From Closterium sp. NIES-65 (taxonomy: Eukaryota; Streptophyta; Zygnematophyceae; Desmidiales; Closteriaceae), in contig CANXME010002068.1 of assembly GCA_948144175.1 (NCBI GenBank), positions 744,001 to 808,000 on the forward strand: DNA of 64,000 bases, written 5' to 3'. How positions within the stretch are numbered: position 1 is the first letter of the stretch; every line of letters begins with the position of its first letter. Made by a program: the position numbers and the translations under genes. The notes under the pieces are model-generated. The model did no database searches. It worked only from the letters and a program-made list of their open reading frames with translations, and was not told where the DNA came from. This document shows, piece by piece, positions 12,226 through 59,756 of this stretch.

Positions 12226-12239
12226 CCTGCTCGATACCA

Positions 12240-24747: not shown

Positions 24748-24770
24748 TGTTGGGCTGAGAAAAGCCCTTA
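24748..24770 (-). repeat. Left piece of LTR M1, split by Harbinger P
   Basis: TGTTGGGCTGAGAAAAGCCC then TTA matches the outer end of the M LTR at 58912. The sequence continues after the transposon at 58817-58911 (GGATTTTTGCAGG...). Together they form about 118 bp of an LTR-like copy interrupted at a TTA target. Confidence 0.75.
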
Positions 24771-24820
24771 GGGCATGTTCCTACGGCCCCTTATCAGGGC
24801 CGCCTCTTATCAGCCTCGCT
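24771..24820 (+). repeat. Left terminal inverted repeat of Harbinger P
   Basis: It starts GGGCATGTTCCTACGGCCCC and contains CTTATCAG twice. It pairs with the right end at 58764-58813. Confidence 0.9.
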
Positions 24821-25097
24821 AAATTCACCTGTTATTCGGCTGGAGCGAGAAACCTCTTGTCAGATAAACTTGCCGGTTTGCAGTTGTGTGCGAACTTGAA
24901 AGTTGGATGATGTGGCACAGTGCCGCGAAACCGTGGGCATCAAATTGTGACGTCCCATGAGAACCGCGATCCGTTCAATATGCGACATTGCCACATCAGT
25001 GTAAAACGTATTGCACAAAATACAAACCCAACAACCCACATAGTCTCAACCAAGCAACAATCGTTCACAGATAAAAGCACGCACAAACTATCAAAAG
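24821..25097. other. Harbinger P 5' non-coding region
   Basis: AT-richer sequence between the left terminal repeat and the first LTR insertion. It has an extra CTCTTGTCAG subterminal motif. No coding frame is supported. Confidence 0.6.
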
Positions 25098-25498
25098 TGT
25101 TGGGAAAATAAACGCATGACTTAGTGCGTTTCTGTAGTATCGAACCTCACCCGATACTGAAGCACAACAAAAGGAGTACGAAGTCGAAAAGGCGCGTACC
25201 ACATCAAACCGCAACTGGAGGTTGCGAACTGTAACCGCCTGGAGGTTACGTAACAGCAAGCGACGCTTCAGTGAACAGTAACCACCTCGATAGTCGAAGC
25301 GTTACGCGTCTCGATAAACATAACCGCTTCTTGTAATCTATCCTTTCTATATATTCCTGTATGCCCTTTGCTTTAATCAATTACTTGTTCTCACATACCA
25401 GCACAAGTACATTCACTCAAGACTTCCGCTGTGCTACTCTAGCACCCACTAGCCTATTCTCTGCAAAAGATCCTAAGGCTGAAATTCTCAGCCCAACA
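25098..25498 (+). repeat. LTR of the G family (5' LTR of a remnant)
   Basis: These 401 bp begin TGTTGGGAAAATAAACGC and end CAGCCCAACA. They are very similar to the two Copia G LTRs. The primer-like TGGTATCACGAGC follows at 25499. The left flank AAAAG has no partner nearby. Confidence 0.85.
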
Positions 25499-25787
25499 TG
25501 GTATCACGAGCAAGCGTTCAAACACTTGGACCTGTGGGAGCAGCTTCATTCAGTTTGGCTCACCACCTTTATCATCACCAGGAGCATCTCCTGGAGCAGG
25601 TCAGAACCTGCCACTACCCACGGAGAATTTTGTGGAGGAAATCTTCAACGCGCCGTCGCATAATTTTGGGCGACTTGGCAAGACGCATTTCAAGGCGTAC
25701 CGGTGAAGTCCCTGACGAGGACTTCAGAATTTCAACATGGAGAATTTCATCTCTCTTGGATTCTACACTTCCAACAGTGGAGGGGAG
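25499..25787 (+). other. Interior of a chimeric LTR-element remnant
   Basis: It starts with a primer-site-like sequence and ends with a purine tract (GTGGAGGGGAG) before the next LTR. The sequence in between does not match the Copia G leader, and no protein domain was recognised. Confidence 0.6.
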
Positions 25788-26301
25788 TGTTGGAAATATA
25801 TTTGTGTGTTATTTATCTTGCAGTGCACTGTTCGAAGTGCAGAAGCGAAGCCCTCAATAGCGGGGGTGTTGACTCAAGTATCGAACTGCAGGGGCGCAAC
25901 CGCGTACAGTGGTTGCGACCCGCGTGGCAGCCGAAGGGTCGAATTGAGCAAGAGGCAGTGTCTACAGTACGCGAAACCACCCTGGAGGCGCGGCAGAATG
26001 AAGCGCCCTTGCCGAAGCTGAAAGGTCTCGCCAGTAACTGGGCAACTGAAACGTTACAGCGCAACTGTAATACAGTTGCGCCTTGGTAACTGCCTCCCTG
26101 CTATGTTTCCTATATAACTCAATGTACTGCCATGCTATCATTACACAATTCTCAAGCTTGTGTCCGGCCTACCCTCGGCCGCCGCTTTGGCACCAAGTTA
26201 CAAGCCAGGAGAGCTACCTCTGAGTGACCATAGCCCCGCCGCTGGGACGTCGTTATTTCCTAGAGTATTTCCGCTACTCTAGCGACCTCCTAATTTCAAC
26301 A
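25788..26301 (+). repeat. LTR of a different family (H)
   Basis: These 514 bp begin TGTTGGAAATATATTTG and end CTAATTTCAACA. They carry a polypurine tract upstream and match G-type LTRs only at the outermost bases. Transposase coding sequence follows at 26302. Confidence 0.75.
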
Positions 26302-26536
26302 CATGCCTGCTAATAGTATGGCATGCGTTTTACTTCAGCTCCTTCTTAGACTGTGCCACGAAGGCCTGCATTCAACTGCTAGAGCACATCGACGCCGCGG
26401 AGCAGGAAGAGACATGTGTAGAGTCCCGAAGTGACCTGCGCACGCGGAACCACCAACTACGGCGGCGGAGACTAGACGTGTGGGAGGATGAGATGGCATC
26501 GATGTCGGACGAGACGTTTACAGACCTGTTCCGCAT
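26302..26536 (+). pseudogene. Harbinger transposase, N-terminal part
   Basis: The frame reads ...LLEHIDAAEQEE, then LRRRRLDVWEDEMASMSDET, then FTDLFRI, typical of the helix-rich region before the helix-turn-helix of PIF/Harbinger transposases. It is cut by Copia G at 26536. After removal of G and one CGCAT it continues in frame as NRAILDHICEGM at 56129. The true start codon is not clear, since LTR remnants lie just upstream. Confidence 0.8.
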
Positions 26537-26939
26537 TGTTGGGAATATAAACGCATGACTTAGTGCGTTTCTGTAGTATCGAACCTCACCCGATACTGAA
26601 GCACAACAAAAGGGGTATGAAGTCGAAAAAGGCGCGTACCACATCAAACCGCAACTGGAGGTTGCGAGCTGTAACCGCCTGGAGGTTACGTAACAGCAAG
26701 CGACGCTTCAGTGAACAGTAACCACCTCGATATTCGAAGCGTTACGCGTCTCGATAAACATAACCGCTTCCTGTAATCTATCTTTCCTATATATTCCTGT
26801 ATGCTCTTTGCTTTAATCAATTACTTGTTCTCACATACCAGCACAAGTACATTCACTCAAAGGACTTCCGCTGTGCTACTCTAGCACCTACTAGCCTATT
26901 CTCTGCAAAGATCCTAAGGCTGAAATCCTCAGCCCAACA
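26537..26939 (+). repeat. 5' LTR of Copia G
   Basis: TGTTGGGAATATAAACGC...CAGCCCAACA. TTTCCTATATATTCC near 26784 is a possible TATA region. Primer-like TGGTATGAGAGC starts at 26940. Confidence 0.9.
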
Positions 26940-27046
26940 TGGTATGAGAGCAGTCAGAGAACAAAGGCTCTCGTCACTAAGCCTCTTCCAGGCTACCGAT
27001 CTGCAAGCAACCAAGAAGTTCAATCTTCATTCAAGAAAGACAAGAC

Positions 27047-27580
27047 ATGGCAAGTGGCAAAGAAAGAAGATCATCTACGGGATCTACTCTACCCCCGGTC
27101 TCCGAGTTGCAGACCGAAGGAGGAACAACGCCCGGATTAACGCCGGAAGCGACGGAACGTTCTACTCAAGCGCCAGTAGCGCCGCCAACAATCTTCAACC
27201 CAAGCTTAATGGAGGAGTTCTTCAACTTCATGTCGCAGCAGCAGTCCTCACAACCTGCAAACAGCAACAGCGTAAACAACGGAGCGGCACCAATGAGTAT
27301 TGACAACTCATCGTTCGGACGACATAATCAACAAAGACCAAATTCGGTCTCACCTGGTTCCTTCACGTTCATGCCGCCTCGCCATCCAGCGACCCCTCTT
27401 CCCGCCATCAAACGAGACACCGAAGAAGTCCTGCAAGTACAAGCACAGTTCAACAACATCCTGGGACTGCACACATCCACACCATTCAACGGGAAGGACT
27501 TCTACTCTTGGAGCTTCGAGTTTGAACTCCTGATGGAAGGCGCGAATCTTCTTGGATTCTTCAACGGTACCTGGCCATAT
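27047..27580 (+). pseudogene. gag: Copia G Gag, N-terminal part
   Basis: The frame opens MASGKERRSSTGSTLPPV, is Ser/Gln/Asn-rich, and leads into the Gag fold at TPFNGKDFYSWSFEFELLME, the W-containing start of the UBN2-type domain. It is interrupted after GTWPY by Copia I and resumes in frame at 34853 (PHNGEDKDKENY). The sequence itself is intact up to the insertion. Confidence 0.88.
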
Positions 27581-27711
27581 TGTCAAACATTATATGTTTG
27601 TGTGGTTCTAGGCTGTAGTGGGTCACACCATAGGGGGTACACCAGTTTAGGGTTTCATATTTGTACTGTTGTTCCTGCTAGTCACACCCATTCCTGTTTC
27701 TCATTCTGACA
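27581..27711 (+). repeat. 5' LTR of Copia I (131 bp)
   Basis: TGTCAAACATTATATG...TTCTGACA. TGGTATTACGAGC follows at 27712 as primer site, and GGGCCC lies at 27753-27758. Confidence 0.9.
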
Positions 27712-27769
27712 TGGTATTACGAGCCTAGGTTCCACCTAGGACCGGAACGTTAGGGCCCACCGTTTCCGC

Positions 27770-28515
27770 TAGCCGCGCCCTCGTGCGCCGCCTTTTCCTA
27801 GCGCCCTCGTGCGCCTCGTTCCTAGCGTCGCCCCTTCAGGCCCCTCACGGCCCCTCGCGTCGCCCCTTACGGCCTCTCACGGCCCCGTCTTAAGACCCTG
27901 CGCTAGCCCCTTAAGGCCCCGCGTCGGCCCCGCGCTAGCCTCTCACGGCCCCCTACGGCCCCGCGCTAGCCCCGAACGGCCCACCTACAGCCCCGCGCTA
28001 GCCTCCTACGGCCCCGATTGGCCCCGCGCTAGCCTCGAACGGCCCCGTGTGGCCCCCGCGCTAACCTCCCACGGCCCCGTAAGGCCCCGCGCTAGCCTCC
28101 CACGGCCCCTTCAGGCCCCGCGCTAGCCTCCCACGGCCCCGTCAGGCCCCGCGCTAGCCTCCCACGGCCCCTTAAGGCCCCGCGCTAGCCTCCTACGGCC
28201 CCGAATGGCCTCGCGCTAGCCCCGACCGGCCCCCGAACGGCCCCCCGCGCTTGCCTCTCACGGCCCCTCCCGCGCTCGCCCCTCTACGGCCGAGCCGCGC
28301 TGTGCGACCCGACCCGAACCGCGCCGCCCTAGCCGAGCCGCGCCGCCCTAGCCGAGCCGCGCCGTCCTAGCCGAGCCGCGCCCTCCTTACCTGAGCAGCG
28401 GCACCAGTACTGAACTGCTACTACTACTGCTACTGCTACTGCTACTGCTACTGCTGCTGCTACTGCTGCTGCTGCTGCTACTGCTACTGCTACTTCTGCT
28501 ACTGCTACTTCAGCT
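27770..28515 (+). repeat. GC-rich tandem-repeat leader of Copia I
   Basis: About 20 copies of a unit like CCCGCGCTAGCCTCCCACGG (27880-28270) are followed by AGCCGAGCCGCGCCGCCCT repeats (28320-28385) and a CTGCTACTGCTACT trinucleotide run (28420-28515) up to the gag ATG. Confidence 0.88.
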
Positions 28516-31500
28516 ATGGCTAGCCCTCCAGTTCTCTCGTTCGATACTGAGGGCCGCCCGATTAAGTTTGAGACCTGGCTCGATGATCTGCATCTGTTCC
28601 TCCAACTCACTGCCAGAGAGGATATCTCGCTGTACGATCACGCACTAGGCACAGTCCCTACTCCTGCTACTACTGCTGCTGCTACTGCTTGCTCACAGTG
28701 GCAGACTCGCGATGCCCAGGCCCGCTTTGCTATTCGCAACTCCCTGCCAGTAGACGAGCGCGAGCACTTTGGCCAGCATCAGACTGCGCACGCCCTGTAC
28801 ACTGCTGTAGTTGCGCGCTACTCCTCCCCGGCCTCAGCTGCACTAGGCCGCCTCTCGCTTCCCTACCTGTTCCTCGACCTGTCCGCCTTCCAGACAGTCG
28901 CTGACCTCATCACTCACCTCCGCACTAGTGATGCCCGCTTCCGTGCAGCCATGCCCGCTGAGTTTCTTGCCTCCAACCCTCCCCCGCTCTGGCTCACTCT
29001 CTACCACCTAGTCACCCGCCTCCCTCACACTCTGCGTACAGTCAGGGACCACTTCCTAGCTCGCTGCCCCACTGAGCTCACCATTACCGCCCTAGAGAAG
29101 GAACTACTTGCAGCTGAGAAGAGTATTGTAGCTGTAGGTGCCTCTCGTGGCGACCCCCGCACCCCTTTCTTCGAGGGGTGTTCCCCCTCCCCCCTGCTCC
29201 CCTCTGTCGCCTCTGCTGCTGCTGTCGACCTCCTTGGTGCTGAGCAAGTCGGCTCTGCGTCCGCTCCCAGTGGGCGCCGCAGCGGCAAGGGCAGGGGAGG
29301 CAAGGGCGGTGGGGGTGACGGCGGGGGAGGCGGTGGTGGGGTTGGTGGCGGCGGTGGGGGTGGTGGCGGGGCTGGAGGGGCTAGTGGCAGCGGCGGGGGT
29401 GGTGGAGGCAGCGGCGGCGGAGGTGGCCGGGGTGGGGGCGGCGGTGGTGGCGGCAGTGGACGTGGAGGCGGCAGAGGCGGTGGTGGTCGTGGTGGAGGCG
29501 GCGGTGGTGGTCGTGGAGGCTCTGGCACTGGCCAGAGCGCGCAGCACCCTCAGTCCTCCCAGGAGCTTCGTGAGTGGTACTTACAGCACGGGGGTGGGGG
29601 GGGTAGCCTTAGCTGCACGTACGTCATCCGCACTGGTCGCCGCAAGGGACAGACGTGCGGGAGGGCGCACACTGCGCAGCGCTGCTTCTCTCGCCTAGAT
29701 GACGCGTGGCGTGCTCAGTTTCCTGACGCTCCTGAGCTCCCTCAGTGGGCTGATCTCCTCAAGAAGGATATCGATATCTATGCTCTTGATTTTGATGTTA
29801 TTCTCAAAGCCATGTATGCATTGACTATTAGTGGAGAGGAGGACCAGTACCTGTGTGTTCCGCCTGACCCAGGCATCCGCACGAGTGAGGCTGCAGCCCT
29901 AGGTGCTTGCGTGTCTGCTGCCCCAGGTGCTAGTGAGGCTACTGCTCTAGGTGCTTGTGTGTCCGCCACCCCAGGTACTACTGAGTCCACTGAGGCACTG
30001 CACACCTTCACTCTAGACTCAGGCGCTTCGCGCTGTTTCTTTCGTGACCGCACTGCTCTTGAGCCCCTTGCTCGACCAGTCGCTGTCTCGCTCGCTGACC
30101 CCTCTGAGGGTCCGGTCATTGCGACCTCCTCCACTGTCCTTCCTTGTCCTGCTGTCCCGTCGGGCACACTGTCAGGTCTCCACCTTCCCTCGTTCTCTAC
30201 GAACTTGGTGGCGGGTTGTGCGCTTCAGGATGGGGGTGTTCACCAGTTCACCCCTGCCTACAAGCGTGTGACACACTGCACGTGTGCTCGGACGGGCCGT
30301 CACCTGGCTACCTTCACTCGGCAGCCGGGGTCGGACCTGTACACACTTACCACTGAGTCCCCTCAGGTAGCGGCGTCTGCGTCTGCGTCTGCGTCAGGTC
30401 AGCTGTCTGCCCCCTGCTCGTGTCGCTCTCTAGCGCACAAGACTGTCCTCTGGCACCACCGACTTGGTCACCCGTAAGTGCAGCGCCTTTGGGGCATGCA
30501 CTCCCGGTACCTTGTCTCTGGTCTTCCTCGGGTACTCCCTCCCCTCCCACCCTCCCTTGCTCCTCCTTGTCTTCCCTGTGTCGAGGGGCGGCAGCGCGCT
30601 GCCCCTCACTCCTCCTCGTTCCCCCCGACGACTGCTCCTTTGCAGACGCTCCACATGGACGTGTGGGGCCCAGCCCGCGTCCGTGGTCAGGGCCAGGAGA
30701 GGTACTTCTTGATCGTCGTTGACGACTACTCGCTCTACACCACGGTCTTCCCCTTGCGCACCAAGGGTGAAGTCCCTAATGTTCTGATCCCTTGGATCAG
30801 CAGAGCACGTCTTCAGGTGCGAGAGCGTTTTCGCTCGGAGTTTCCTGTCCTGCGCTTGCACTCTGACAGAGGTGGCGAGTTCTCCTCCGACCTCTTGGCA
30901 GCGTACTGTGCAGAGCACGGCATTCGCCAGTCGTTCACGCTTCCGGCCTCTCCACAGCAGAATGGGGTTGCTGAGCGCCGCATTGGCTTGGTCATGGAGG
31001 TCGCTCGTACCTCCTTAGTCCACGCGGCTGCCCCCCACTTTCTGTGGCCGTTTGCGGTCCGGTACGCTGCGCATCAGCTCAACCTCTGGCCCCGTGTCTC
31101 CGCTCCGGAGACCTCGCCCACACTGCTGTGGACGGGGGAGGTTGGCGATGCGTCACGCTTCCGTGTCTGGGGATCCCGAGCTTTTGTTCGCGACACGTCT
31201 GCGGACAAGCTCTCCTCCCGCACTGCTCCCTGTGTCTTTCTTGGCTTTGTCCCGGATGCGTCTGGCTGGCAGTTTTACCACCCCGCCTCGCACCGCGTCT
31301 TCCCCTCTCAGGACGTCACTTTTGACGAGTCCGTGCCCTTCTACCGCCTCTTCCCCTACCGCACTGCCCCGCTCCCTCCCCCGCCTCTCTTCCTCGCGCC
31401 AGGTGCTGCAGTGGTAGACCCCCTTCCTCCTCAGGGTGCCGCTCCCTCAGGTGTCTCTCAGGTAGACCCGGCTGAGCCTGCCGAGGTAGCTGTCGACTCG

Positions 31501-34484
31501 CGTCCTGCTAGAGGTGCTGAGCCTGAGCGTGCGGAGCCTGAGCGTGCGGAGCCTGCGCGGGCGGAGCCTAGGGGTGCTGAGTCTGGGGGTGCTGCGACTG
31601 GGGGTGCTGAGCCTGGGGGTGCTGAGACTGGGGGTGCTGAGCCTGGGGGTGCTGGGTCTAGGGGTGCTGCGCCTGGAGTTGCTGAGTCTGGGGGTGCTGA
31701 GCCTGGTGGTGTTGCAGTTGATTGTGAGGCGCCTGGAGGACCTCCCTCTTCGCAGCAGCTACGTGAGTGGTACTCACGGTACTGCAGCCTTCGGCGGGGT
31801 GCGTCTCGGGCTAGTGGTGCTACTGGAGTTGGTACTCGTGTTTCCCCACCACGGCGGGAGCCGCCCTCTTCCCCACAGCTTCAAGAGTGGTACGCTCGGC
31901 ACATCAGTCTCCGGAGTGGAGCTGCTGGTGCTGGGGTCCCCGGAGTTGACGCTGCTGCGGGTGCTGCGGACCCTGGTGCTGGAGGTGCTACTGCTACTGG
32001 CGGTGCTGCTGGAGGTGCTGCTCGTACTGAGGACCCGGGCGTTGGAGCTACTGCGGGTGCTGCGGACCCTGGTACTGGAGGTGCTGCTGGTGCTGCTGGA
32101 GGTGCTGCTACTGCTGCTGGAGTGGAGGACCCGGCGAGTGGAGCTTCTGCTGGTCCTGAGGACCCTGCCGCTGGTGTCTTTGCTGGTTCGGGAGTTGCTG
32201 CACGGCCACGGCCGTACTTCTTTCCGCTCCTTCAGCAGGTTCTTGGTCAGCCTCCTCCTCCTTGTTCTCCTCTCGCCTTAGAGTGTCCGCCGTCTGTCCA
32301 GTTACAGCCACAGTTACCGCCTGCCTCCCCACTCCCTGTGCCTGCTCCTTACACTGGTCCGACTGGAGGTCTTGCTGAGAGACGTGAGCCTGCGTCACGT
32401 CCTGTGTCACCTGCGTCTCGTCGAGCGTCGCCTGTTCGTGCTGCTACCACTGGTAGTCGTGTCCAGCGTCAGCGTCCTCCTGCTGTCCCAGGCACTCACC
32501 AGATGGCGCTTCGTCAGTCCACTGCTCCGCAGCGTGTCGCTCTCCCGTCGCCTCCTGCGTCCTCTCTTCCTGCTCTTGCTGACCCGGAGTCAGACACCCT
32601 TCGCGCTGCCAGTCCTACTGTCACACGTCTCCTGGCTACAGTTGTCACAGACCCTTCCTTTGAGTCCGCTGCTGCGTCTGCCTTAGTCACTGAACTTGTC
32701 GACTTTGCAGCTGCGTGTCGTCTAGACTACGCTGCGAGTCTTGTTGCTGAGTCTGAGTCTGTCTGTCCTCCGTCCGTCGGGGGTGAGTGTGCTCTTGGCA
32801 CGGACGTTCTTGAGGACAGGCAGGAGGAGTTTGGTTGCCTTGCCGCTGCTTTGCCCCATCTCGTGTCCATGCTTGTTGCCCCTGAGGAGACCCGGATGCA
32901 CCAGACATCCCGACCCCACGCTCTTACGCAGAGGCGATGGCCGGTCCCTACTCCTCTCAGTGGCAGTCAGCCATGGACACAAAGATGGCTTCCTGGAAGT
33001 CCACTGGCACCTACGTCGACGAGGTTCCCCCACCTAGGGCGAACATCGTCAGTGGCATGTGGATTTTCAGGGTGAAGCGGCCGCCGGGCTCTCCGCCTGT
33101 CTTCAAGGCGCGTTACGTTGCACGAGGCTTCAGTCAGCGAGAGGGAGTTGACTTCTTCCAGACCTTCTCCCCGACCCCGAAGATGACCACTCTTCGGGTT
33201 CTGCTACACGTCGCCGCTCAGCGTGACTACGAGCTCCACTCTCTTGACTTCAGCACAGCTTTCTTGCAGGGCAGCCTGCACGAGGAGATCTGGCTGCGCC
33301 GCCCACCTGGCTTCACTGGGTCGTTCCCTCCTCGTACCCAGTGGAGCCTCTGGCGGCCAGTCTACGGTCTCCGCCAGGCGCCACGTGAGTGGCACGACAC
33401 ACTGAGGACTACACTTGCGGCTCTTGGGTTCGCTCCTTCTACTGCTGACCCGTCGCTGTTTCTACGCACCGACACCTCACTGCCGCCGTTCTACATCCTC
33501 GTGTACGTCGACGACTTGGTCTTTGCCACTTCTGACACAGCTGGTCTCGCTCACGTGAAGTCCGAGCTGCAGAAGAGACACACGTGCACAGACCTAGGTG
33601 AACTGACAAGCTATCTTGGCTTGCGGATCACCCGGGACAGAGCACGGCGCACCATCACCTTGACTCAGTCACACATGGTGCAGCAGGTCCTTCAGCGCTT
33701 CGGCTTCACGTACTCCTCGCCTCAGTCCACTCTGCCTACGGGACACTCGCTCTCAGCTCTGCCTTCGGATGAGTCCGTAGAGCCGAGTGGTCCGTATCCA
33801 GAGCTTGTGGGCTGCCTCATGTACCTGATGACCTGCACTCGACCTGACCTTGCATACCCTCTCAGCATCTTAGCACGCTATGTCGCTCCCGGCCGTCACC
33901 GGAAGGAGCACATGGATGCAGCTAAGAGGGTGTTGCGCTACTTGTGCAGTACGTCGGGCATGGGGCTAGTGCTTGGAGGGCGAGACCGGCCTGTTCTCAC
34001 TGGGCACTCAGACGCTTCTTGGGCAGACGACCAGGCTACTCAGCGGTCGTCTCAGGGTTACACCTTCAGTCTTGGCTCTGGCTCTGTCTCTTGGCGTTCT
34101 ACTCGTTCTTCTTCTGTTCTCAGCTCCAGCTGTGAGGCTGAGATCTACGCCACGGCCATGGCTGCCCAGGAGCTTCGCTGGCTCACCTACCTGCTGACTG
34201 ACCTTGGAGAGCAGCCTCGTTCTCCTCCAGTGCTGTACGTCGACAACAAGGCAACCATAGCCTTGTGTCAGGAGCACAGACTGGAGCACAGGACGAAGCA
34301 CATTGCTCTGCGTTACTTTCTAGCTCGAGAGCTACAGCAGCGTGGTCAGCTTCTTCTGCGTTACGTGGCCACTGAGGCCAACACTGCTGATGTGTTCACC
34401 AAGGCGCTTCCGCCTGTTGACCATCAGCGTTTTTGCACTCTTCTAGGTCTTGTGCCGACTGTTCCTCACTTGCTTACTTCTTGA
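28516..34484 (+). pseudogene. gag-pol: Copia I Gag-Pol polyprotein, one stop and one frameshift
   Basis: A single frame would give about 1990 residues. Gag (28516 on) has a Gly-rich tract (29290-29540) and the C-X13-C-X3-H-X4-C finger (29614-29685). Protease TLDSGASRCFFRDRT lies near 30015. GAG-pre-integrase ends HHRLGHP, where TAA (30475-30477) interrupts the same frame. Integrase has LHMDVWGPA, LHSDRGGEF and PQQNGVAERRIG (30650-30980). A repetitive Ala/Glu/Pro/Gly linker follows (31510-32160). A one-base deletion near 32885 shifts the frame. RT has YVDDLVFA near 33505, and RNase H ends near 34400. The RNase H codon that is TGA in J and K is CAG here. It makes the particle, cuts the polyprotein, copies RNA and integrates cDNA. 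This copy is probably inactive or dependent on readthrough. Confidence 0.92.
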
Positions 34485-34693
34485 CTTTGCCTGTACTGTG
34501 ATCATGATATATATACCTGCATGTTTGCCCTTGCTAGGTTGTGATCATTGTACCTCTTGCTCTATTATAAAACTGCATGTGAACTGGTCTTGTGACCGCT
34601 TACTTGTGCTCGGAATTTGTGTGGAATCCTCGAGATCCACCCTGAGCTTGTTTGCCTTGCTTTGCCTTGACTGGTCTTGTGACCCCTAGGTCT

Positions 34694-34716
34694 CCCCCAC
34701 TTTGCCTATGGGGGTG
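34694..34716 (+). promoter_or_regulatory. PPT hairpin of Copia I
   Basis: CCCCCA (34694-34699) pairs with TGGGGG (34709-34714) around CTTTGCCTA, directly before the 3' LTR. Confidence 0.65.
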
Positions 34717-34847
34717 TGTCAAACATTATATGTTTGTGTGGTTCTAGGCTGTAGTGGGTCACACCATAGGGGGTACACCAGTTTAGGATTTCATATTTGT
34801 ACTGTTGTTCCTGCTAGTCACACCCATTCCTGTTTCTCATTCTGACA
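34717..34847 (+). repeat. 3' LTR of Copia I
   Basis: This 131-bp copy is like 27581-27711 with one G to A difference. It is followed by the CATAT duplication. Confidence 0.9.
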
Positions 34848-34852
34848 CATAT

Positions 34853-36159: not shown

Positions 36160-36291
36160 TGAGAAGAAGTGAACGAGAATGAAATGACTATGAATGAAGT
36201 GAGTACAAATGGGAAACCCTAATTGGGTTGTACCCCCTACGGGATACCCCACTATAGCCTACACAAAAAAGTAAGCTATAATGTTCTGACA
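36160..36291 (-). repeat. 3' LTR of Copia J (132 bp)
   Basis: On the minus strand TGTCAGAACATTATAG...CTTCTTCTCA. It differs from the 5' LTR by a few bases and small indels. Confidence 0.9.
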
Positions 36292-36481
36292 CACCCCCAT
36301 AGGCAAAGTGGGGGAGAACAAGGGGCCACAAGACCAGTCAAGCAAAGCAAAGCAAAGCTCAGGGTGGATCACAAAGTCACCACACATTCCGAGCACAAGT
36401 TCAAAGGCCAGAAGGCCAGTCCACATGCAAGATCATATAAAGAGATATACAAGAGTCAAGCAAGCAAGGGCAAGAGTATAT
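36292..36481 (-). other. Distal 3' UTR and PPT of Copia J
   Basis: On the minus strand it ends in the CCCCCA/TGGGGG hairpin next to the LTR. It is separated from the rest of J by Copia K at a TATAT target. Confidence 0.75.
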
Positions 36482-36613
36482 TGTCAGAACATTATAGTTT
36501 ACTTATTTGTGTAGGCTATAGTGGGGTATCCCATAGGGGGTACAACCCAATTAGGGTTTCATATTTGTACTCACTTCATTCATAGTTCATTCATTCTCGT
36601 TCACTTCTTCTCA
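36482..36613 (+). repeat. 5' LTR of Copia K
   Basis: TGTCAGAACATTATAG...CTTCTTCTCA, 132 bp, with core blocks GGCTATAGTGGGGTA and GGGTACAACCC. Confidence 0.92.
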
Positions 36614-36661
36614 TGGTATCGAGCAGGTTCCCCTGTGGGACCTGTGCTTAGGGCCCACCAC
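36614..36661 (+). promoter_or_regulatory. Primer site, stem-loop and GGGCCCACC motif of Copia K
   Basis: TGGTATCGAGC abuts the LTR. GGTTCCC and GTGGGACC can pair just downstream, and the palindrome GGGCCC starts 37 nt from the primer-site start (36651-36656). The spacing is identical in A, E and J, which argues for a functional RNA element such as a packaging or dimerisation signal. That role is inference. Confidence 0.65.
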
Positions 36662-36679
36662 CTCGAAACGTCTTTTTTT

Positions 36680-37540
36680 TTCTGCCCTAGCCGCTAGCGC
36701 ACCGCCCGCCCTCGAACGTGAGCACCGCCCCTAGCGCCCTAGCGCCCGTCCGCTGCCTGCTCTAGCGCTAGCCGCCCGACGCGCCGCCCACAGCACTGCC
36801 CGACGCGCTGCCCTAGCGCCGCCCTAGCGCCGCTCGACGCGCCAGCCTAGCGCCGCCCGACGCGCTGCCCGACGCGCCGTCCTAGCGCCGCCCAACGCGC
36901 CGCCCTAGCGCAGCCCATCGCGCTGCCTGTGCAGCCGACCTAGCGCCGCCCGTCGCGCTGCCCAACGCGCCGCCCGTAGCGCTGCCCGCTGCCCGCCCTA
37001 ACGCCGCCCGTCGCGCTGCCCAACACGCCGCCCACGCGCCGCCCCAGCGCCGCCCGACGAGCAGCCCGTGCAGCCGCCCGTGTGCCCGCCCGTGCACCTG
37101 CCCGTACACCTACCCGTGCGGCCGCCCGTGCACCCGCCCGTGCACCTACCCGTGCGGCCGCCAGTGCAGCTGCCCGTGAGCAGCCTGCGAGCCGCCCCAG
37201 CAGCCCGTGCAGCCACCCAAGTCGCCCGTGAGCCGCCTCGGCCGCCCGTGCAGCCGCCCGTGAGCCGCCCGCTCGCCGCCCCAGCCGCCCGTGCAGCTGT
37301 CCACGAGCCGCACCAGCCGCCCGTGCTGCCGCCTGTGAGCCGCCCGCGAGCCGCCCGCGAGACGCCCAAGCCGCCCGAGCCGCCCACGCCGCCCGAGCCG
37401 CCCGAGCCGCCCGAGGAGCCGATCTTCTGCTCCTGTGGGGCTCCCACTGCTCCTGGGCCGGCGCAGCTCCTGTACTGCCGTGTTGCTGTGCCGCTGTGCT
37501 ACCCGACTCTTCCTGCCCGGTGAGACTGTCTGCTGCTACA
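36680..37540 (+). repeat. GC-rich tandem-repeat leader of Copia K
   Basis: Degenerate units such as CGCCGCCCTAGCGCCGCCCG (about 36690-37040) and CCGCCCGTGCAGCCGCCCGTG (about 37050-37420). There are no protein domains, although overlapping low-complexity frames exist. Confidence 0.85.
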
Positions 37541-43444: not shown

Positions 43445-43633
43445 CCTTGCTTGTACCTTGACCTATATATACTCGTGCTCTTGTTTGCTTGACTCTTGTA
43501 TATCTCTATATATGATCTTGCATGTGAAATGGCCTTGTGGCCCTTGAACTTGTGCTCGGAATGTGTGGTGACTTTGTGATCCACCCTGAGCTTTGCTTTG
43601 CTTTGCTTGACTGGTCTTCTGACCCCTTGTTCT

Positions 43634-43656
43634 CCCCCACTTTGCCTATGGGGGTG
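43634..43656 (+). promoter_or_regulatory. PPT hairpin of Copia K
   Basis: CCCCCA (43634-43639) and TGGGGG (43649-43654) flank CTTTGCCTA right before the 3' LTR. Confidence 0.65.
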
Positions 43657-43788
43657 TGTCAGAACATTATAGCTTACTTATTTGTGTAGGCTATAGTGGG
43701 GTATCCCATAGGGGGTACAACCCAATTAGGGTTTCATATTTGTACTCACTTCATTCATAGTTCATTCATTCTCGTTCACTTCTTCTCA
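43657..43788 (+). repeat. 3' LTR of Copia K
   Basis: A 132-bp direct copy of 36482-36613 with one T/C difference. Confidence 0.92.
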
Positions 43789-43816
43789 TATATATAGGTG
43801 AAGGTACAAGCAAGGT

Positions 43817-46800: not shown

Positions 46801-48811
46801 CTGAGGGGGAAGGGGGTCGACCGGGGGGGGACCTGGTACCAAGAAGAGCGGGGGTGGGGGGAGGGACGGAGTGCGGTAGGGGAAGAGGCGGTAGTAGGGT
46901 ACCGACTCGTCGAACGTGACGTCCTGGGAGGACAGAACACGGCGAGAGGTGGGGTGGTAGAACTGCCACCCAGGGGCGTCGGGGGGGAACCCCAGGAAGA
47001 CGCAGGGAGCAGCGCGAGGGGACAGCTTGTCCGCAGACAAGTCGCGGACAAACGCCCGAGATCCCCAGACCCTGAACGCCGACGCATCGCCAACCTTCCC
47101 CGTCCACAGCAGGGCTGGGGAGGTCTCCGGCCTGGAGACCCTGGGGTGGAGGTTGATCTGATGCGCCGCGTACCTGACCGCAAACGGCCACAGAAAATGG
47201 GGGGCAGCCGCATGCATCATGGACGTACGAGAGACGTCCATGACCATGCCAATGCGGCGCTCTGCAATCCCATTTTGCTGTGGTGAGTCCGGAAGCGTGA
47301 AGGTCTGAGGAATGCCTCGCGCACGGCAGTAGGCACGCAGAAGGCCAGAGGAAAACTCTCCGCCTCTATCCGAGTGCAGACGCAGAACCGGAAAGTCCGA
47401 GCCAAAGCTCTGCCTGGGCTGGAGACGAGCTGCGCGGATCCAGTCGATCAGCACCTCAGTAACATCACCCTTGCTGCGCAAGGGGAAGACTGTGGTGTAA
47501 CGCGAGTAGTCGTCAACCACCAACAGGAAGTAGCGCTCGTGACCGAGTCCACGGACGCGGGCAGGGCCCCACACGTCCATGTGAAGCGTCTGCAACGGAG
47601 CCTGTGTCGGAGGAAACTGGGAGGAGTGAGGGGCAGCACGCTGGCGCCCCTCGACACAGGGGACACAGGCAGGGCCAGGGCCCTGAGGAAGGGGAGGGAG
47701 GGACCGGGGAAGACCAGACACAAGAAGACGGGAGGCCATGCCTCTGAGCCGAAGCAGGGAGGGGTGACCCAGGCGGTGGTGCCAGAGGAGAGTCTCGTGA
47801 GACAGGCGACGACACGAACAGGGGGCAGACTCAGGACCAGACCTGGACGCTGCAGACAACACCTGACCAGACGAGGGGACCCTACCAGACTCAGGAATTG
47901 GAGGAGAAGCAGTGGTCAGTGTGTACAGGCTCGACCCTGGCTGACGTGTAAACGTAGCCAGGTGACGACCTGTGCTAGCCTCTGTGCAGTGCGTCACCTG
48001 CTGACGAGCAGGGGTGAACTGGTGGACTCCCGCATCCTGTAGGTCAGCACCACTCACCAAGTTCGTAGAGAACGAGGGGAGGTAGAGACCAGACAGGGTG
48101 CCAGAGGGAGCCGCCGGACACGGGAGGACTGTGGAGAAGTGAGACAGGACAGGACCCCCAGAGGGGTCAGCCAGGGACACCGCAACCGGCCGACTAAGCG
48201 GCGTGAGTGTGGTGCGGTCCCGAAAGAAGGAGCGAGACGCTCCAGAGTCAAGAGTGAAGGTGTGGGAGGCCGAGGCCGACGCAGTACCTGAGAGCGCAGA
48301 CTCACTAGTACCTGAGAGAGCAGCCTCACCAGTACCTGAGAGCACAGACGCACTGGCACCTAGAGCAGAAGCCTCACTGACACCTAGAGCAGCAGTACCA
48401 ATGCCCGGGTCGGGCGGGAAACACCGGTAACAGTCACCCTCATCACTAATGGTCACAGCATACATGGCAGCAAGGATAGCATCAAAGTCAAGATCAAAGA
48501 TAGCTACACCAGCCCGAGACAGCTCTCCCCAGCGGGGGATCTCCGCGGCCTCCGGGAACTGCTGGCGCCAAGCGTCCGTCAGGCGGCCAAAGCAGCGCTG
48601 GGCGGTGTGGGTACCCCCACACTACTCTCCAGCACGGTCGCCAGTGCGAACGACGTAGGTGCAGGGACCAAAACCCCCACCACGCTGACGCTGCGTGTAC
48701 CACTCATGGAGCTGCTGAGGCGTCAGGAGGTCGCGAGAACGCTGCTGCTGCTGCTGCTGGCGCTGACCACCCCCAGTGCTGCTCCGCTGCGAAGTGCCAC
48801 TCCGACCACCT

Positions 48812-48844
<33 letters not shown>

Positions 48845-49820
48845 CCGCCTCCGCCTCCACCGCCGCCGCCTCCGCCACCTCCGCTCCCACCGCCACCGCC
48901 GCCACCACCCCCGCCTCCACTGCCGCCACTAGTACCCCCACCCCCGCCACCACCTCCACCGCCACCCCCACTCCCCCCGCCGCCTCCACCGCCACCTCCA
49001 CCGCCCCCGCTGGCCCCACCCGCTCCCTTGCCCCCCTTGCCCTTGCCAGAGCGGCGTCTCCCGCTAGGGGCAGACGCCGCACCGACCGACTCAAGACCAA
49101 CGAGGTTGGCCGCAGCGGCAGAGGCGACAGAGGGCAAAAGGGGGGAAGGAGAACACCCCTCAAAGATGGGGGCACGGGGGTCACCTCGAGAGGCTCCTAC
49201 AGCGACTATGCTCTTCTTCGCCGCTAGGAGGGCCTTCTCGAGGCTGTCGACTGTGAGGGTGGTGGGTCAGACCGCGAGGAAGTGGTCCCGGACTACACGA
49301 AGGGAGTCAGGGAGGCGAGTGACTAAAAAGTAGAGAGTGATGTACATGGGGGGGGGGGGTTCTTGGCGCAGAAGTCAGCAGAAAGCGCAGCGCGGTAGCG
49401 AGTGTCACTAGTGCGGAGGTGCGTAATGAGGTCAGCGACAGTGGGAAAGGCGGCAAGGTCAGGGAAGAGGAAGGGGAGCATGAGGCGGCTCAGTGCAGCA
49501 GTGGCAGGGGAGGAGTAGCGCGCAACTACAGCGTCGTACAAGGTCTGGGCACTCTTGTACTGGCTAAAGTGCGCGCGCTCAGCGGTAGGCAGGTGGCGAC
49601 GCACAGCAAGACGTGCAGCAGCATCACGCGTGGCCCACTGTGAGCGAACAATGGCGTCAGCATCAGCAGCAGGGGCAGGGACGGCACCAGAGGTGAGGTC
49701 AAAGAGAGAAAGACCGTCTGCCCTATCGCACTGTAAGAACAGCTGCAGGTCGTCGACCCAGACCTCAAAGTCAATGGCGCGACCCTCAGCGTCAAAAGCT
49801 AGGACACTAGGGGTAGCCAT
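43817..49820 (-). pseudogene. gag-pol: Copia J Gag-Pol polyprotein (several breaks)
   Basis: It starts at 49820 with MATPSVLAFDAEGRAIDFEV. A 12-base homopolymer (plus 49347-49358) shifts the frame in Gag, and a TGA lies near 49265. The Gly-rich tract and finger follow (48592-48663), with TAG (48622-48624) at the codon before the second Cys. From there to 44323 a 1380-codon open stretch covers protease, integrase, the Ala-Glu-Pro-Gly-Gly linker (about 46490-46730), RT (YVDDLVFA near 44795) and early RNase H. TGA codons then occur at 44320-44322 and 44029-44031, before the end near 43817. The 44029 stop matches the one in K. Confidence 0.9.
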
Positions 49821-50700
49821 GACGACAGACTAGCAGTGCAAGCAGTGCGGGGAGGGGCACGCAGTAGCAGTGGAGCTGTGCTCACCAGACAGGACAGGTC
49901 GGGCAGCTCAGCAGCACAGGAACACGGTAACACAGCAGCTGCCGGCCCAGTAGCAACAGCAGCCCCACAGGACCAGCAGCTCGGCTCCCCAGGTGGCTCG
50001 GGCGGGTCGTGCGGCTCGGGCGGCTCGGGCGGCTCGGGCGGCTCGGGCGGCTCGGGCACGCAGCGGCACGGGCGACTCGGGCGGCTCCGCTGCTCGGGTG
50101 GCTCGCGTGGCTCGGGTGACGCGGGGGCTCACGGGCGGCGCGGGCGTCGTGGCGGGCGGCTCACGGGCGGCTGCACGGGCGGCTGGGGCGGCTCACGGGC
50201 GGCACGTTGGGCGGCTGCACGGGCGGATGCACGGGCGGCTGCACGGGCGGTTGCACGGGCGGCTGCACGGGCGGCTGCACGGGCGGCGCGTCGGGCTGCT
50301 GAGGGCGACGCACGGGCGGCCGACGGGCGGCTAGCGGGCGTCGGGTGGCGCGCGGGCGTCGGGTGGCTAGCGGGCGCCGGGCGGCTAGCGGGCGTCGGGC
50401 AGCTAGCGGGCGTCGGGCGGCTAGCGGGCGTCGGGCGGCTGGCGCGTCGGGCGGCTAGCGCACGGGCAGGCAGCTGACGGGCGGATCTGGGCGGCGCACG
50501 GGCGGCTCACGCGAGCTGCTCACGCTCTGCGTAGGGCAGCGCGCGGGGCGCTAGGGCGCTAGGGCGGGCAGCGCGCGGGCGCTACGGCGCCAGGGCGCTA
50601 GGGCGGTTAGCGGGGCGCGGGCGCTAAGGTGGCGCTTGGGCTGCTAGGGCGGGCGGCGCGCTAGCTGCTAGGGCAGAAAAAAAAAAATTTCAAGGTAGTG
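49821..50700 (-). repeat. GC-rich tandem-repeat leader of Copia J
   Basis: Repeats such as GGCTCGGGCGGCTCGGGC (49995-50060), GGGCGGCTGCACGGGCGGCT (50150-50290) and GCTAGCGGGCGTCGGGCG (50330-50460). No domain-bearing frame was found. GGGCCC at 50706-50711 lies 37 nt from the primer-site start. Confidence 0.85.
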
Positions 50701-50748
50701 GTGGTGGGCCCTAAGCACAGTTCCCACAGGGGAACCTGCTCGATACCA

Positions 50749-50878
50749 TGAGAAGAAGTGAACGAGAATGAAATGACTATGAATGAAGTGAGTACAAATA
50801 GGAAACCCTAATTGGGTTGTACCCCTATGGGATACCCCACTATAGCCTACACAAATAAGTAGCTATAATGTTCTGACA
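50749..50878 (-). repeat. 5' LTR of Copia J (130 bp)
   Basis: TG...CA ends on the minus strand. The primer site TGGTATCGAGCAGG (minus) adjoins at 50735-50748, and the ATAGT duplication follows. Confidence 0.9.
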
Positions 50879-50883
50879 ATAGT

Positions 50884-52239: not shown

Positions 52240-52469
52240 TCTCAGAAGTAGTTAAGACTTAGGCACTAGGGTGTTGGGTAGAACGAGAGTGACGAGAGGA
52301 AGGGGTCGAGGGAGTTTGACAAAAGAGGGTGATTCAATATTGAGCGAGGGTACAAATAGGAAAGAACAAACAAGAAAGGTGCACCACCAAACAGAAACTT
52401 CTATGACTACAGTATTCTACACTACAGGCAGTTACAAAACAATATATAGAGTTATATATTATTCTGACA
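52240..52469 (-). repeat. 3' LTR of element L
   Basis: On the minus strand it starts TGTCAGAATAATATATAAC and ends CTACTTCTGAGA. The 3' end is therefore GA, not CA. Confidence 0.88.
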
Positions 52470-53514
52470 CGCCCCCATAAGTGCCTGTAGGGAAGAAAGT
52501 GCAGTCAACGCCCCCATAATGGGGTACACCATACAGGTGCAGCGGAAGAAACAGATGCAGGCAAAAGCAGTGGTAACCGGTGCAAAAGTGGCAGAAACAG
52601 CTGTAGCCAACCCTCAGCCAAGGAAGAAGTAGTAACAGGTGTGGGAGGCGGCAGGTCGCCTGAGGAGCAGGCTCTGTGGCTGCATCAGGCAGCAGGACAG
52701 CAGCGGCTCGACGGCAGCACCTGCAGGCCCCAGCAGCAGAAAACAGAATACAGGGCAGGTGGCGACAGGGGCGACAGCTGGAGGTGCCAAAGTAGCAGCG
52801 GGCTGCAGCAGCAGATACCCGGCTGTCTTCCGCCACCCTCTCTCACCCTCCCCCCCACAGCTGCAAACGCAGCAGTGAGAGAGAGAGGAGGGGGGACGGC
52901 TGTTGGTGCTGCAAAATCTCTCTCACCAACCCCTCACACTCCCCCCCATCCCCCATAGCGACAGGCGCTGCAGGGAGAGAGAGGAGAGAGGAGGGCATCG
53001 GTTGGTTCCTGCGGGTACACTCCCGCCACCCTTTTACCCTCCCCCCCACAGCGACAGTCGCGTATGGGGCGACAAATGATGACGGCAGCTGCTGCAGACT
53101 GCTCACAGCGGTCGCCCCGACACACCACCTCCCCCATGGTCCCCCACTCCCACGACCTCCCCCCACAGTAGGAGCGCGCACGGCAGCAGCAAGTGCGACA
53201 GCTGCAGTGGGGACCGCGGGAGGGTGGGCGGGGATAGCTGCTCGAGCGCGACGAGCGGAATAGGGGGCCGAAACGGAGGCGCGACGAGGCGACGTCGGGG
53301 CAGCGTGGCCGCGAACGACGGGGCGACGAGGCAGCGCGACGAGCAGAGCGCCGCCTTCGCCCCGTCGATCGCACTGACGATCGAAACCGTCGCGGATTTT
53401 CACGCGACGGTCGCACTGACGGCCCGATCGCAGTAGAAAGTCGTTGGGAGGGAGGGCCGCCATGACAGGGTCGAAAATTGGTGGGCCCATTGGTCGAAAT
53501 CTAGCTCGATACCA

Positions 53515-53744
53515 TCTCAGAAGTAGTTAAGACTTAGGCACTAGGGTGTTGGGTAGAACGAGAGTGACGAGAGGAAGGGGTCGAGGGAGTTTGACAAAAG
53601 AGGGTGATTCAATATTGAGCGAGGGTACAAATAGGAAAGAACAAACAAGAAAGGTGCACCACCAAACAGAAACTTCTATGACTACAGTATTCTACACTAC
53701 AGGCAGTTACAAAACAATATATAGAGTTATATATTATTCTGACA
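53515..53744 (-). repeat. 5' LTR of element L
   Basis: No difference from 52240-52469 was seen by eye. The primer site on the minus strand starts right after it at 53514. Confidence 0.88.
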
Positions 53745-53749
53745 GTCGA

Positions 53750-55720: not shown

Positions 55721-56123
55721 TGTTGGGAATATAAACGCATGACTTAGTGCGTTTCTGTAGTATCGAACCTCACCCGATACTGAAGCACAACAAAAGGGGT
55801 ATGAAGTCGAAAAAGGCGCGTACCACATCAAACCGCAACTGGAGGTTGCGAGCTGTAACCGCCTGGAGGTTACGTAACAGCAAGCGACGCTTCAGTGAAC
55901 AGTAACCACGTCGATAGTCGAAGCGTTACGCGTCTCGATAAACATAACCGCTTCCTGTAATCTATCTTTCCTATATATTCCTGTATGCTCTTTGCTTTAA
56001 TCAATTACTTGTTCTCACATACCAGCACAAGTACATTCACTCAAAGGACTTCCGCTGTGCTACTCTAGCACCTACTAGCCTATTCTCTGCAAAGATCCTA
56101 AGGCTGAAATCCTCAGCCCAACA
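55721..56123 (+). repeat. 3' LTR of Copia G
   Basis: A 403-bp direct copy of 26537-26939 with about two differences by eye. It is preceded by the purine tract AACGAAGGGGAG. Confidence 0.92.
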
Positions 56124-57224
56124 CGCATAAACCGGGCCATATTAGACCACATATGCGAGGGAATGCACCATGTATTGCACCCAGTCATACATAGGCACAC
56201 ACTGCCTATCCGAGTAGCTATTCTGATCCCTATAAAATAATTTGCGAGCGCCATGGCGTACATCGATCTTGCTTTTTGGTTCGGGGTCCCTAAAACGCTA
56301 TGTCATAGGCTTGTTGATTTGTTTTTGCAGAATTTCCCGCGGATTTTTAAGAAGGCCTGGGTCCGATTTCCAACGCAAGACGAGATGCGGGTCATGGTGG
56401 AGGAAATTAAGAGCATCAAAGGTGTTCCAGCGGTTATTGGTGCCATTGATGGCACCCATGTCCAGATCCGGGGAATGGAAGGGCATCGGTCGGAGCATTA
56501 TACGCGCAAATCACAGTATGCCGTACAGCTGCAAGTAACATGCGACGCTAGAGGAATTATCTGGGATTATTTGATAGGCTTTCCGGGCACAGCTCATGAC
56601 CAGCGGGTGTTCATACAATCCAACCTCTACAAACGACTGGAAAATGGTGACATCGCCCCATACCAGCTAGTCGGCGATGCGGCTTATCCCCTCCGCGACT
56701 TTTGCCTCACGCCATTGCACGCTCCGACTGGCCGCCTCATGCTCGAGTGGCAGCAGACATTCAACTACTGCCAATCTGCAACCCGCATGTCCGTGGAGCG
56801 CACGATCGGCCAGTTCAAGGGCCGGTACCGGCTGTTCGCTGGCCGTCACGATTGTGCGCTCTGGCGGGTTCTCGCCGGCGCCAGTTGTGTGTTTATCCTG
56901 CACAATATGGGCATTGGGATGGCAGGGCCACGCATGAAGACCCCAAACATCAGATGGGCGGCTATTTCACTCACCCGGGACCCGTGGTGGACGCGCAGAG
57001 AACTCGCCGAGTATAAGTGGGAGGCATGTGACATTGTCACGCCGTTCGAACTGAAGGAACGCCGTAAAAGGCTCGGAATGGCACTGCATAACGCATACCT
57101 TAAACGACGTCGTCAGCACCGCCACTCCTCAACCTCGTCGCTGAGCGTGGCATTGTCTGCATCCGGCCATGCGTTGTCACCGCCAGCACGTCCGCGGGAG
57201 AAGCGAAGCGGGCGACTAGTTTGA
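56124..57224 (+). pseudogene. PIF/Harbinger transposase (DDE_Tnp_4), main part
   Basis: The frame continues from 26536 after removal of Copia G. A TAA at 56238-56240 interrupts it just before FASAMAYIDLAFWFGVPKTL (the helix-turn-helix region). The catalytic core has VIGAIDGTHVQIRG (Asp codon 56448), LVGDAAYPLRDF (Asp codon 56676) and RMSVERTIGQFKGRY (Glu codon 56796), the DDE triad. From the ATG at 56253 the frame is open for 323 residues to a basic, Ser-rich C terminus. The active enzyme would cut at the terminal repeats together with the Myb-like ORF1 partner. This copy is broken twice. Confidence 0.92.
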
Positions 57225-57495
57225 GACTGCTGGCTTGCCATCCACTCCCGGATTACTCCGGTGATCTGGGAGACGCCCTCCTCTGAGCATCGCGTGAGAG
57301 TGTCGGCCAAAAGTTGAGCAGCCGCCATAGTTGCTGTCTCGTTGATGCGACGTTTTGCGCTCGGGGGTGTGCCGCAGCCTGCAGGCACATAGGCATTGGG
57401 GTGGAAAAAGTGTACACAATTTGAAATGCCTTGTTTGAAATCGCGAAGGTGATTGTGTACTTTGGTTCAGTAGCAAACGGTGAACTACAACTTAG
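57225..57495. other. Convergent gene spacer within Harbinger P
   Basis: This lies between the ends of the transposase (plus) and ORF1 (minus). No further gene was recognised; 3' processing signals for both are expected here. Confidence 0.5.
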
Positions 57496-58359
57496 TCACA
57501 TCCCCGTTCTGAATAACTCACATGTTGTAGTCGTAGCGTCGGTTTTCGTGGGCTTAGGGATGTTCAGGCCTGGATCGACGGTAACGTCGTCAGCATCGCC
57601 ACCATCCAGTGTGTGCGGGCCTGCCGCTGCAGTGTCCTTATAGAAAAGGACCATCCACTCCCACCACGGGGGCTTGATGACAGTTGCCCCACCCGACGCA
57701 GAGTCCCCCTTCGTCACCTACTTCCACAAGGCCTTCAACCGTTTCCACTGGTTGGTGCACGCGGTAGCGTTGCGGCTCCAGTCGGGGTGCTGGAGCTTAA
57801 TGTGCTCGCAGAGACGCAGCCAGTATTGGGAGCCTTGCTTCCCAGTCATCTGCTGCAGCTCGTCCTTCGTGAACCAACGAGCTACAACTAGGATGGTCGA
57901 CTCCTTCAGCGTCCACTCAATACGAGCGCCAGGCCCCGGGCTGCTGTTCACCTTAGCAGGGCTGCGCACTGCAGACTTTCCCTTCCGCTTCCCGTCAGAG
58001 TGCGAGGCAGCCGCAGATTGATCGTGATCGGCTTGAGCAGCTGTTGCATCGTCCTGATCAGGGCCGTTGTATTCAGCGATGCCGTGCCAGGCGGCAACGG
58101 CATCGTCGCGATCGGAGCTGGCAGCATCGTCCTCATCGTCCGAATCCTTCTCAATGTATTCGTCGTCCATGTCGTATTCACGGGGCAAGACTGTTGCTTG
58201 CTTCGGGTTTGAGCTCGCGGCTCCCACGCTACGTAACGGACGGGCGGTTGGTTTTCCGGCCGCGATTTCGGCATTCATCCATTTGACATAGGCTAGGTCC
58301 TCCACACTCCAACCTTCGTCGTCTGCTGGACGAACTAATCCTTTGCGTTTGCGTGCCAT
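57496..58359 (-). pseudogene. Harbinger ORF1, Myb/SANT-like DNA-binding protein
   Basis: The start at 58359 gives MARKRKGLVRPADDEGWSVE. An acidic, low-complexity middle follows (DDEDDAASSDRDD), then the trihelix/Myb-like domain: EWTLKESTILVVARWF, QYWLRLCEHIKLQHP, and ACTNQWKRLKALWK. An in-frame TAG (57718-57720), probably from CAG, breaks it. The same frame then continues KPPWWEWMVLFYKDTAAA to the stop at 57496, which fits the family's C-terminal half. In PIF/Harbinger elements this protein binds transposon ends and recruits the transposase. Confidence 0.85.
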
Positions 58360-58763
58360 GGCTAGCTGCTAAAGATCGATGATAATGTTCCTAATCTATG
58401 TCACGGTTTTGTATGCTTTGACTGATCTATGCAATTCTATGTTGTTGTTGGTTCCTTGTTTGCTGTGGTTTGTGGAACGTGTCGAACGTGCTGGTGCACT
58501 GGATGGCTTTGTGGCGGGAATTGAGATAAATGTTGGGAATCGTGAAAAATGAGCACGTAAGCTTCCCGTTGCACATTCGCCACGTCACAGTCGTGCGCAG
58601 GTTAAAGTGACGGGTGAGACTCATGCTTTGACGCTTACGCGATTCTGTGGACGTGCACAGTGGGTTCCGCGTCGTTGAGCGACATGGTGCGATCGATTTC
58701 ATTCGTGCGCGTTCACGGTACAAGCCTGACACGAGGCGTTCTATAACGTGCGTACAACGAATA
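58360..58763. other. Harbinger P right non-coding region
   Basis: This is the promoter side of ORF1 up to the right terminal repeat. No additional gene was recognised. Confidence 0.5.
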
Positions 58764-58813
58764 TGCGAAGCTGATAAGAGGATGCCCTGACAAGGGGCCG
58801 TAGGAACATGCCC
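58764..58813 (-). repeat. Right terminal inverted repeat of Harbinger P
   Basis: It ends GGGGCCGTAGGAACATGCCC, followed by TTA. Inward it reads CTTATCAG-type motifs in inverse orientation. It is nearly the same as the left end over almost 50 bp. Confidence 0.9.
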
Positions 58814-58816
58814 TTA

Positions 58817-58911
58817 GGATTTTTGCAGGACTAAATTCTGGGTAGGACAATGTAATAGCGGAAGCGTTTAGTGCCAAGTTTGTGAACCACCTTGCGCTGG
58901 TATGTGAGGGC
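58817..58911 (-). repeat. Right piece of LTR M1
   Basis: It resembles the first part of the following M LTR: both contain TTTGCAGG, TAGCGGAAGCGTT, and GTGAACCACCTTGCGCT. It joins the left piece at 24748-24770 across Harbinger P. It ends at AGGGC exactly where the next LTR begins. Confidence 0.75.
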
Positions 58912-59357
58912 TGTTGGGCTGAAAAGCCCTTAGGTAGGATCTTTGCAGGGGTGAACTCTAGGTAGAGTTGGTGTAGTAGCGGAAGCGTTAATTAAAGGGT
59001 TGTGAACCACCTTGCGCTAGTATGTGAGGGCAAAGTAAGTTGATTAAAGCAAAGAGATACAGGATTATATAAGAGTACAAGGAATACGAAGAGATACGGT
59101 TATAACTACTTTACTGTTGCTGTTGCGGTTCGATACAGTGACGACTCGGGCAACTGATCTGTAACGAGTCAGTTCTGTGTCCTTGCTGTCGTGCTGTACT
59201 TGTCAGGTCAAAGGTCGCTGACCTTTGTCTTTCACGTAACCTCTAGCAACCGCTCAACCTCCGAGGGTTGACTCGCCGGTGCTTCGATATACTTCGCTTC
59301 GCTTCTGACTTGGTGTTTTGACACGACAGAGGCGCTTAGGACCGATTGTTTCCAACA
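58912..59357 (-). repeat. 3' LTR of Copia M (446 bp)
   Basis: On the minus strand it starts TGTTGGAAACAATCGG and ends CTTTTCAGCCCAACA. It is preceded on that strand by the purine tract AGAAGCGAAGGGGAG. Confidence 0.85.
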
Positions 59358-59712: not shown

Positions 59713-59756
59713 TGGTATAGAGCGAGTCCTTCCTAAGGACTGTTTTTTTGGGGCCC

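Follow-up and report, generated by a model that had tools for sequence, protein, structure and literature searches.

How a DNA transposon of about 3.2 kb comes to span 34 kb, and in what order its inserts arrived, is the question raised by a 64,000-nucleotide stretch of Closterium sp. NIES-65 (contig CANXME010002068.1, positions 744,001 to 808,000, forward strand; hereafter the window). Target duplications, element edges and empty-site copies together resolve a nest with the levels M0 > P > G > J > K, in which G additionally hosts I and L, while a separate element, M, hosts C, D and a 375-bp TRIM. The nest very probably arose by ordinary serial insertion, that is, by independent transpositions into transposons. 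The genome searched was the 874-Mb assembly of 2400 contigs, and positions called window-extended are counted on past 64,000 into the same contig. The features are as follows.

3783-5654: small LTR element of 1872 bp left of the nest, exact duplication GGTTC
5856-12366: LTR element left of the nest, exact duplication GGGAG
12888-14492: small LTR element of 1605 bp left of the nest, exact duplication CTGTT
24748-24770, minus strand: first piece of M0, the left end of an old Copia LTR (net LTR 445 bp)
24771-58813, plus strand: P, a PIF/Harbinger transposon, together with all its nested elements, TTA duplication, about 55-bp terminal inverted repeats
25098-26301, plus strand: composite Copia remnant without a duplication, standing in place of 73 bp of P
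26537-56123, plus strand: Copia G, LTRs 26537-26939 and 55721-56123, duplication CGCAT
27581-34847, plus strand: Copia I in G, LTRs 27581-27711 and 34717-34847, duplication CATAT
36160-50878, minus strand: Copia J in G, LTRs 36160-36291 and 50749-50878, duplication ATAGT
36482-43788, plus strand: Copia K in J, LTRs 36482-36613 and 43657-43788, duplication TATAT
52240-53744, minus strand: small LTR element L in G, 1505 bp, LTRs 52240-52469 and 53515-53744, duplication GTCGA
56241-57221, plus strand: right part of the P transposase, DDE_Tnp_4 (E 7.8e-27)
58817-58911, minus strand: second piece of M0, between P and M, ending in the duplication AGGGC
58912 to window-extended 80113, minus strand: Copia M, 3' LTR 58912-59357, duplication AGGGC (window part 58912-64000)
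59581 to window-extended 67094, plus strand: K-type Copia C in M, duplication GGCGA (window part 59581-64000)
window-extended 70509-70883 (L064:6509-6883): 375-bp TRIM in M, duplication matching at four of five bases
window-extended 71175-78420: K-type Copia D in M, duplication CGAAG
window-extended 80119-80445: third piece of M0, where the LTR resumes beyond M

The sequence-only reading had proposed five levels, and five there are, but the outermost is not the one it named. It took 24748-59357 as a single LTR (M1), which begins TGTTGG, ends CCAACA and holds P with TTA on both sides. However, 58912-59357 by itself forms the LTR pair of M together with window-extended 79672-80113 (they differ by 14 mismatches and a gap of 4 bases), a primer-binding site adjoins the latter, AGGGC stands on both sides (58907-58911 and 80114-80118), and M0 picks up again at 80119, which makes a single outer LTR most improbable. 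The supposed LTR instead combines the left part of M0 with an entire 3' LTR that belongs to M, a full-length Copia in its own right, whose LTR pair and duplication are collinear with both flanking M0 pieces. Once the contig was read past the window, two other accounts of M1 were dropped: one took it for a single LTR carrying a 120-bp tandem repeat inside, the other for the 3' LTR of an element that had been truncated. The resumed M0 differs from M's LTR by 47 mismatches and 5 gaps over 340 columns counted from 80114. The three M0 pieces make up one 445-bp LTR scattered across 55,698 bp, in which P and M are neighbours 95 bp apart, forming two side-by-side nests over 55.7 kb. Net of its inserts, M measures 6052 bp. 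A genome search found no second copy of the whole locus with an empty site for M0, P or M in place, and the host flank past about 16.2 kb had no match there but itself, giving no empty site for the whole nest. Left of the nest, 17664-19904 is probably a host gene and matches the PADRE domain weakly (28.7 bits, just under the 29.6 cut-off); the stretch that holds it also matched only itself.

The target duplications and edges that had been listed for P, G, I, J, K and L are all exact, and the chance of five 5-bp and one 3-bp duplication at these fixed edges is about 3.5e-17. With M, C and D, nine elements carry exact duplications. The further claim that almost every boundary was proven holds for those six elements, but it overlooked the remnant at 25098-26301, which has no duplication. 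This remnant consists of a G-like 5' LTR (25098-25498, 96%), a primer-binding site, 286 bp and an unlike LTR-like stretch (25785-26301), a composition that suggests two insertions with a deletion between them; the 73 bp that it replaces carries the transposase start in other P copies.

The same duplications bear on whether the nest exists in the cell at all, or was produced by misjoined repeats during assembly. The families involved are highly repeated in the genome, and the N50 of the published NIES-65 reads, 30 kb, falls short of the 34-kb nest (PMC10407611). Nevertheless, misjoins would not leave nine elements with an exact duplication on either side, the net element lengths agree with those of uninterrupted copies, and the window contains no N; an assembly artefact is thus very unlikely.

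Under serial insertion, the old Copia LTR M0 would have received the Harbinger P and, 95 bp further on, Copia M. Copia G would have broken P within its transposase gene, and the composite Copia remnant would have broken P too. The K-type Copias I and J and the small element L would then have entered G, with K entering J, while the K-type Copias C and D and the TRIM entered M. Each element was presumably inserted by an integrase or transposase of its own kind, and L and the TRIM may have been mobilized in trans by Copia machinery. Three points stand against serial insertion: the remnant and the TRIM have no exact duplication, the LTR pair of J is more diverged than that of the enclosing G, and the genome search turned up no second copy of the whole locus.

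That P grew from about 3.2 to 34 kb, as the sequence-only reading had it, is borne out by 3247 bp of its own sequence in a span of 34,043 bp. TAA or TTA stands beside other P copies, and both the TWA duplication and the inverted repeats of PIF/Harbinger are present. The best 38 of 51 matches of the P transposase are from Closterium. An ORF at 57721-58368 on the minus strand of P, considered as a second, Myb/SANT-like protein, has no Pfam match. Distinct P loci were counted from matches of at least 95% identity covering much of the right arm, with two locus pairs that are 98-99% identical including flanks merged, and with short end fragments (C2176, C1255, C2039 and C957) and relatives of at most 76% left out; 11 loci remain by these criteria. 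The merged pairs (L018/L019 and L020/L021) lie on different contigs and have their inserts in common, indicating that the assembly holds duplicated regions, in agreement with the copy-number variation described in PMC10407611.

Empty-site copies, which had been proposed as a check, are present for both inner hosts. In four P copies without G (L014-L017), the left arm, the 73 bp, the second left piece and the right arm are consecutive and the G site is empty, giving an uninterrupted length of 327 + 73 + 235 + 2685 = 3320 bp; the protein relative P0001 spans the G-in-P site. For G, which measures 6081 bp once I, J and L are subtracted, a genome search with the LTR scored 40 of 980 candidates (42 rows), which were paired by contig, strand and spacing. 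Among the matches listed, 13 G LTR pairs are visible, six of uninterrupted length and seven enlarged, counting the window. Two enlarged pairs (C1809 and C485) have nearly equal spacing and may therefore be one locus seen twice, and the only enlarged copy examined internally (C106) holds a K-type insert. The six uninterrupted copies measure 6081, 6081, 6079, 6081, 6079 and 6072 bp, with LTR differences of 3, 1, 0, 1, 1 and 3 of about 403 places, and their duplications are all exact; three have CATTG in common and so may be copies of one locus. All six cross the I, J and L sites without a break; the exceptions are a single base next to the J site, different in every copy, and three bases of L012 that stay unaligned at its L site. 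Protein relatives P0094, P0113 and P0052, judged by eye, also span these sites.

Excision was said to restore the coding frames, and in part it does: no frame is lost at the I, J and L joins of G or at the G join of the P transposase. The restored genes are nonetheless damaged. The transposase has lost its start region and has an in-frame stop at 56238, just before its right part, that is open in all seven other copies checked. G has in-frame stops at 35579, 51614, 52130 and 55359, places open in 6/6 other copies, while in the same columns three of those copies have no stops and the others have 2, 4 and 2. A reverse transcriptase domain is found in G, with gag_pre-integrs at 20.7 bits, under the 28.4 cut-off. 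The idea that G was "dead on arrival" was tested on these stops: four against 0.55 expected from the LTR age gives p = 0.0025, but the upper limit of the rate gives p = 0.14, and p is 0.076 given the 37 private internal substitutions of G in 5262 columns, 22 of which are C>T or G>A.

An LTR pair with a 5-bp duplication was found for G, I, J and K, and integrase lies before reverse transcriptase in single ORFs in J and K and in two ORFs in I. The gag of J contains a frameshift and stops, and that of K one stop. A TAG occupies the same gag place in J (48622-48624, minus strand) and C (62060-62062), beside a CGG.H zinc-knuckle-like motif; programmed read-through was considered as its explanation, and the position is open in K, B and I. 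L, a candidate non-autonomous element with a longest listed frame of 227 aa, has LTRs, a primer-binding site like those of J and K, a polypurine tract and a 5-bp duplication.

The strict order of activity claimed for the nest is only partial. What the nesting establishes is M0 > P > G > {I, J, L}, with K later than J, and on the other side M0 > M > {C, D, TRIM}; it provides no ranking of P against M or among I, J and L. The LTRs of M are more diverged than those of G (14/442 versus 2/403 substitutions, p = 0.004), and M therefore probably came before G. The report of about zero to two differences per LTR pair in G, I, K and L was correct, with 2/403, 1/131, 1/132 and 0/230 substitutions, respectively. 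A recent burst is accordingly reasonable for these four, as well as for D outside the window (0/132), but J, left off that list of ages, has three substitutions and two 1-bp gaps in 130. The LTR pair of C, whose edge was placed one base off, differs by one mismatch and two gap events, and that of the TRIM by 3/141.

The sequence-only reading had named, as evidence that would count against the nest, an inner LTR pair plainly older than that of its host. J exceeds the enclosing G in direction, but not clearly: substitutions of 3/130 versus 2/403 give p = 0.096 by Fisher's test, counting gap events gives p = 0.012, a constrained likelihood-ratio test gives p = 0.045, and comparison with the private changes over the whole body of G (39/6068) gives p = 0.25. 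J is thus borderline older-looking than G. Conversion of its left LTR from another copy was considered and is unsupported by the states in the best 15 of 39 other scored matches, where the right-LTR state occurs in 13/15, 15/15 and 14/15 at the three substituted places; both one-base gaps are private to the right LTR. Age inversion is reported for about one fourth of nested elements among 4126 plant nested pairs (PMC7251063). The layers are mostly young, and 130-bp LTRs are no strict clock.

The TRIM has an A-box motif at the LTR end and a B-box motif past the primer-binding site. The two are separated by 44 bp, a spacing like that in a tRNA gene. No tRNA-like sequence lies inside its LTR, which has the A box alone, the B box being internal; ARAGORN found no tRNA on L064, and Rfam returned nothing at cut-off on L064:6400-6950. 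The same pairing of motifs occurs at a second place, within an insert in a P copy (C1978; L023:4304-4361), and inserts that start like the TRIM were seen in L030 (376 bp) and L020/L021 (141 bp, the LTR length).

On the surface, so many insertions into transposons might point to K-type Copias and small LTR elements that prefer transposons as landing sites, making the nest a product of targeting and not of chance. Inserts occur in six of the 11 distinct P loci (the window, C418/C1689, C1769/C1875, C1978, C1642 and one C531 locus), seven of the 13 visible G pairs are enlarged, and NIES-54 gene models P0021 and P0037, judged by eye, are fusions of a K-type reverse transcriptase with a P-type transposase. 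However, the published NIES-65 genome is 876 Mb with 62.6% repeated elements (PMC10407611), so random insertion would mostly hit repeats, and the insert counts are raw and come from P and G copies chosen by similarity. Targeting is therefore unlikely. A fuller version, in which Harbinger and Copia elements are landing pads, the double nest in M0 results from targeting, and one passenger is a TRIM with polymerase III promoter motifs split across the LTR/primer-binding-site junction, is somewhat less likely still. In another NIES-54 gene model, P0054, a K-type Copia appears by eye to be joined to a G-type reverse transcriptase. Similar nests probably occur in other strains, as P0021, P0037 and P0054 suggest.

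Clusters of nested LTR retrotransposons are known from maize, and the structure here is a new example of a well-described kind. In 12 plant genomes, 1491 nested LTR retrotransposon pairs have been reported (PMC6911290), and among the Closterium transposon papers covered, none concerned such a nest, judging by titles and abstract openings. In this freshwater green alga, a relative of land plants, the locus records past transposition with unusual clarity, which rests on the nine exact duplications and, for the inner layers, on empty-site copies. It also lets LTR dating be tested against a known order, and J in G shows the weakness of dating by 130-bp LTRs.

Plant nests likewise have duplications, elements several levels deep and young inner elements, but here the host is a charophyte alga, a DNA transposon forms one link of the chain, and a single LTR is shared by two nests. 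As in Ty1/copia, integrase precedes reverse transcriptase, most LTRs are TG..CA, duplications are 5 bp and the primer-binding site adjoins the LTR; in contrast, G, J and the remnant in P are broken, C starts with AG, and L, read in its own orientation, finishes with GA. P resembles PIF/Harbinger in its DDE_Tnp_4 transposase, inverted repeats and TWA duplications, and departs from it in a transposase broken by G, with one stop and its start region lost. Helenus TRIMs are described as having a tRNA-like sequence within the LTR (PMC10886601). They share short LTRs, a primer-binding site and A- and B-box motifs with the TRIM in M, but the A box of the latter lies at the LTR end and its B box past the primer-binding site.
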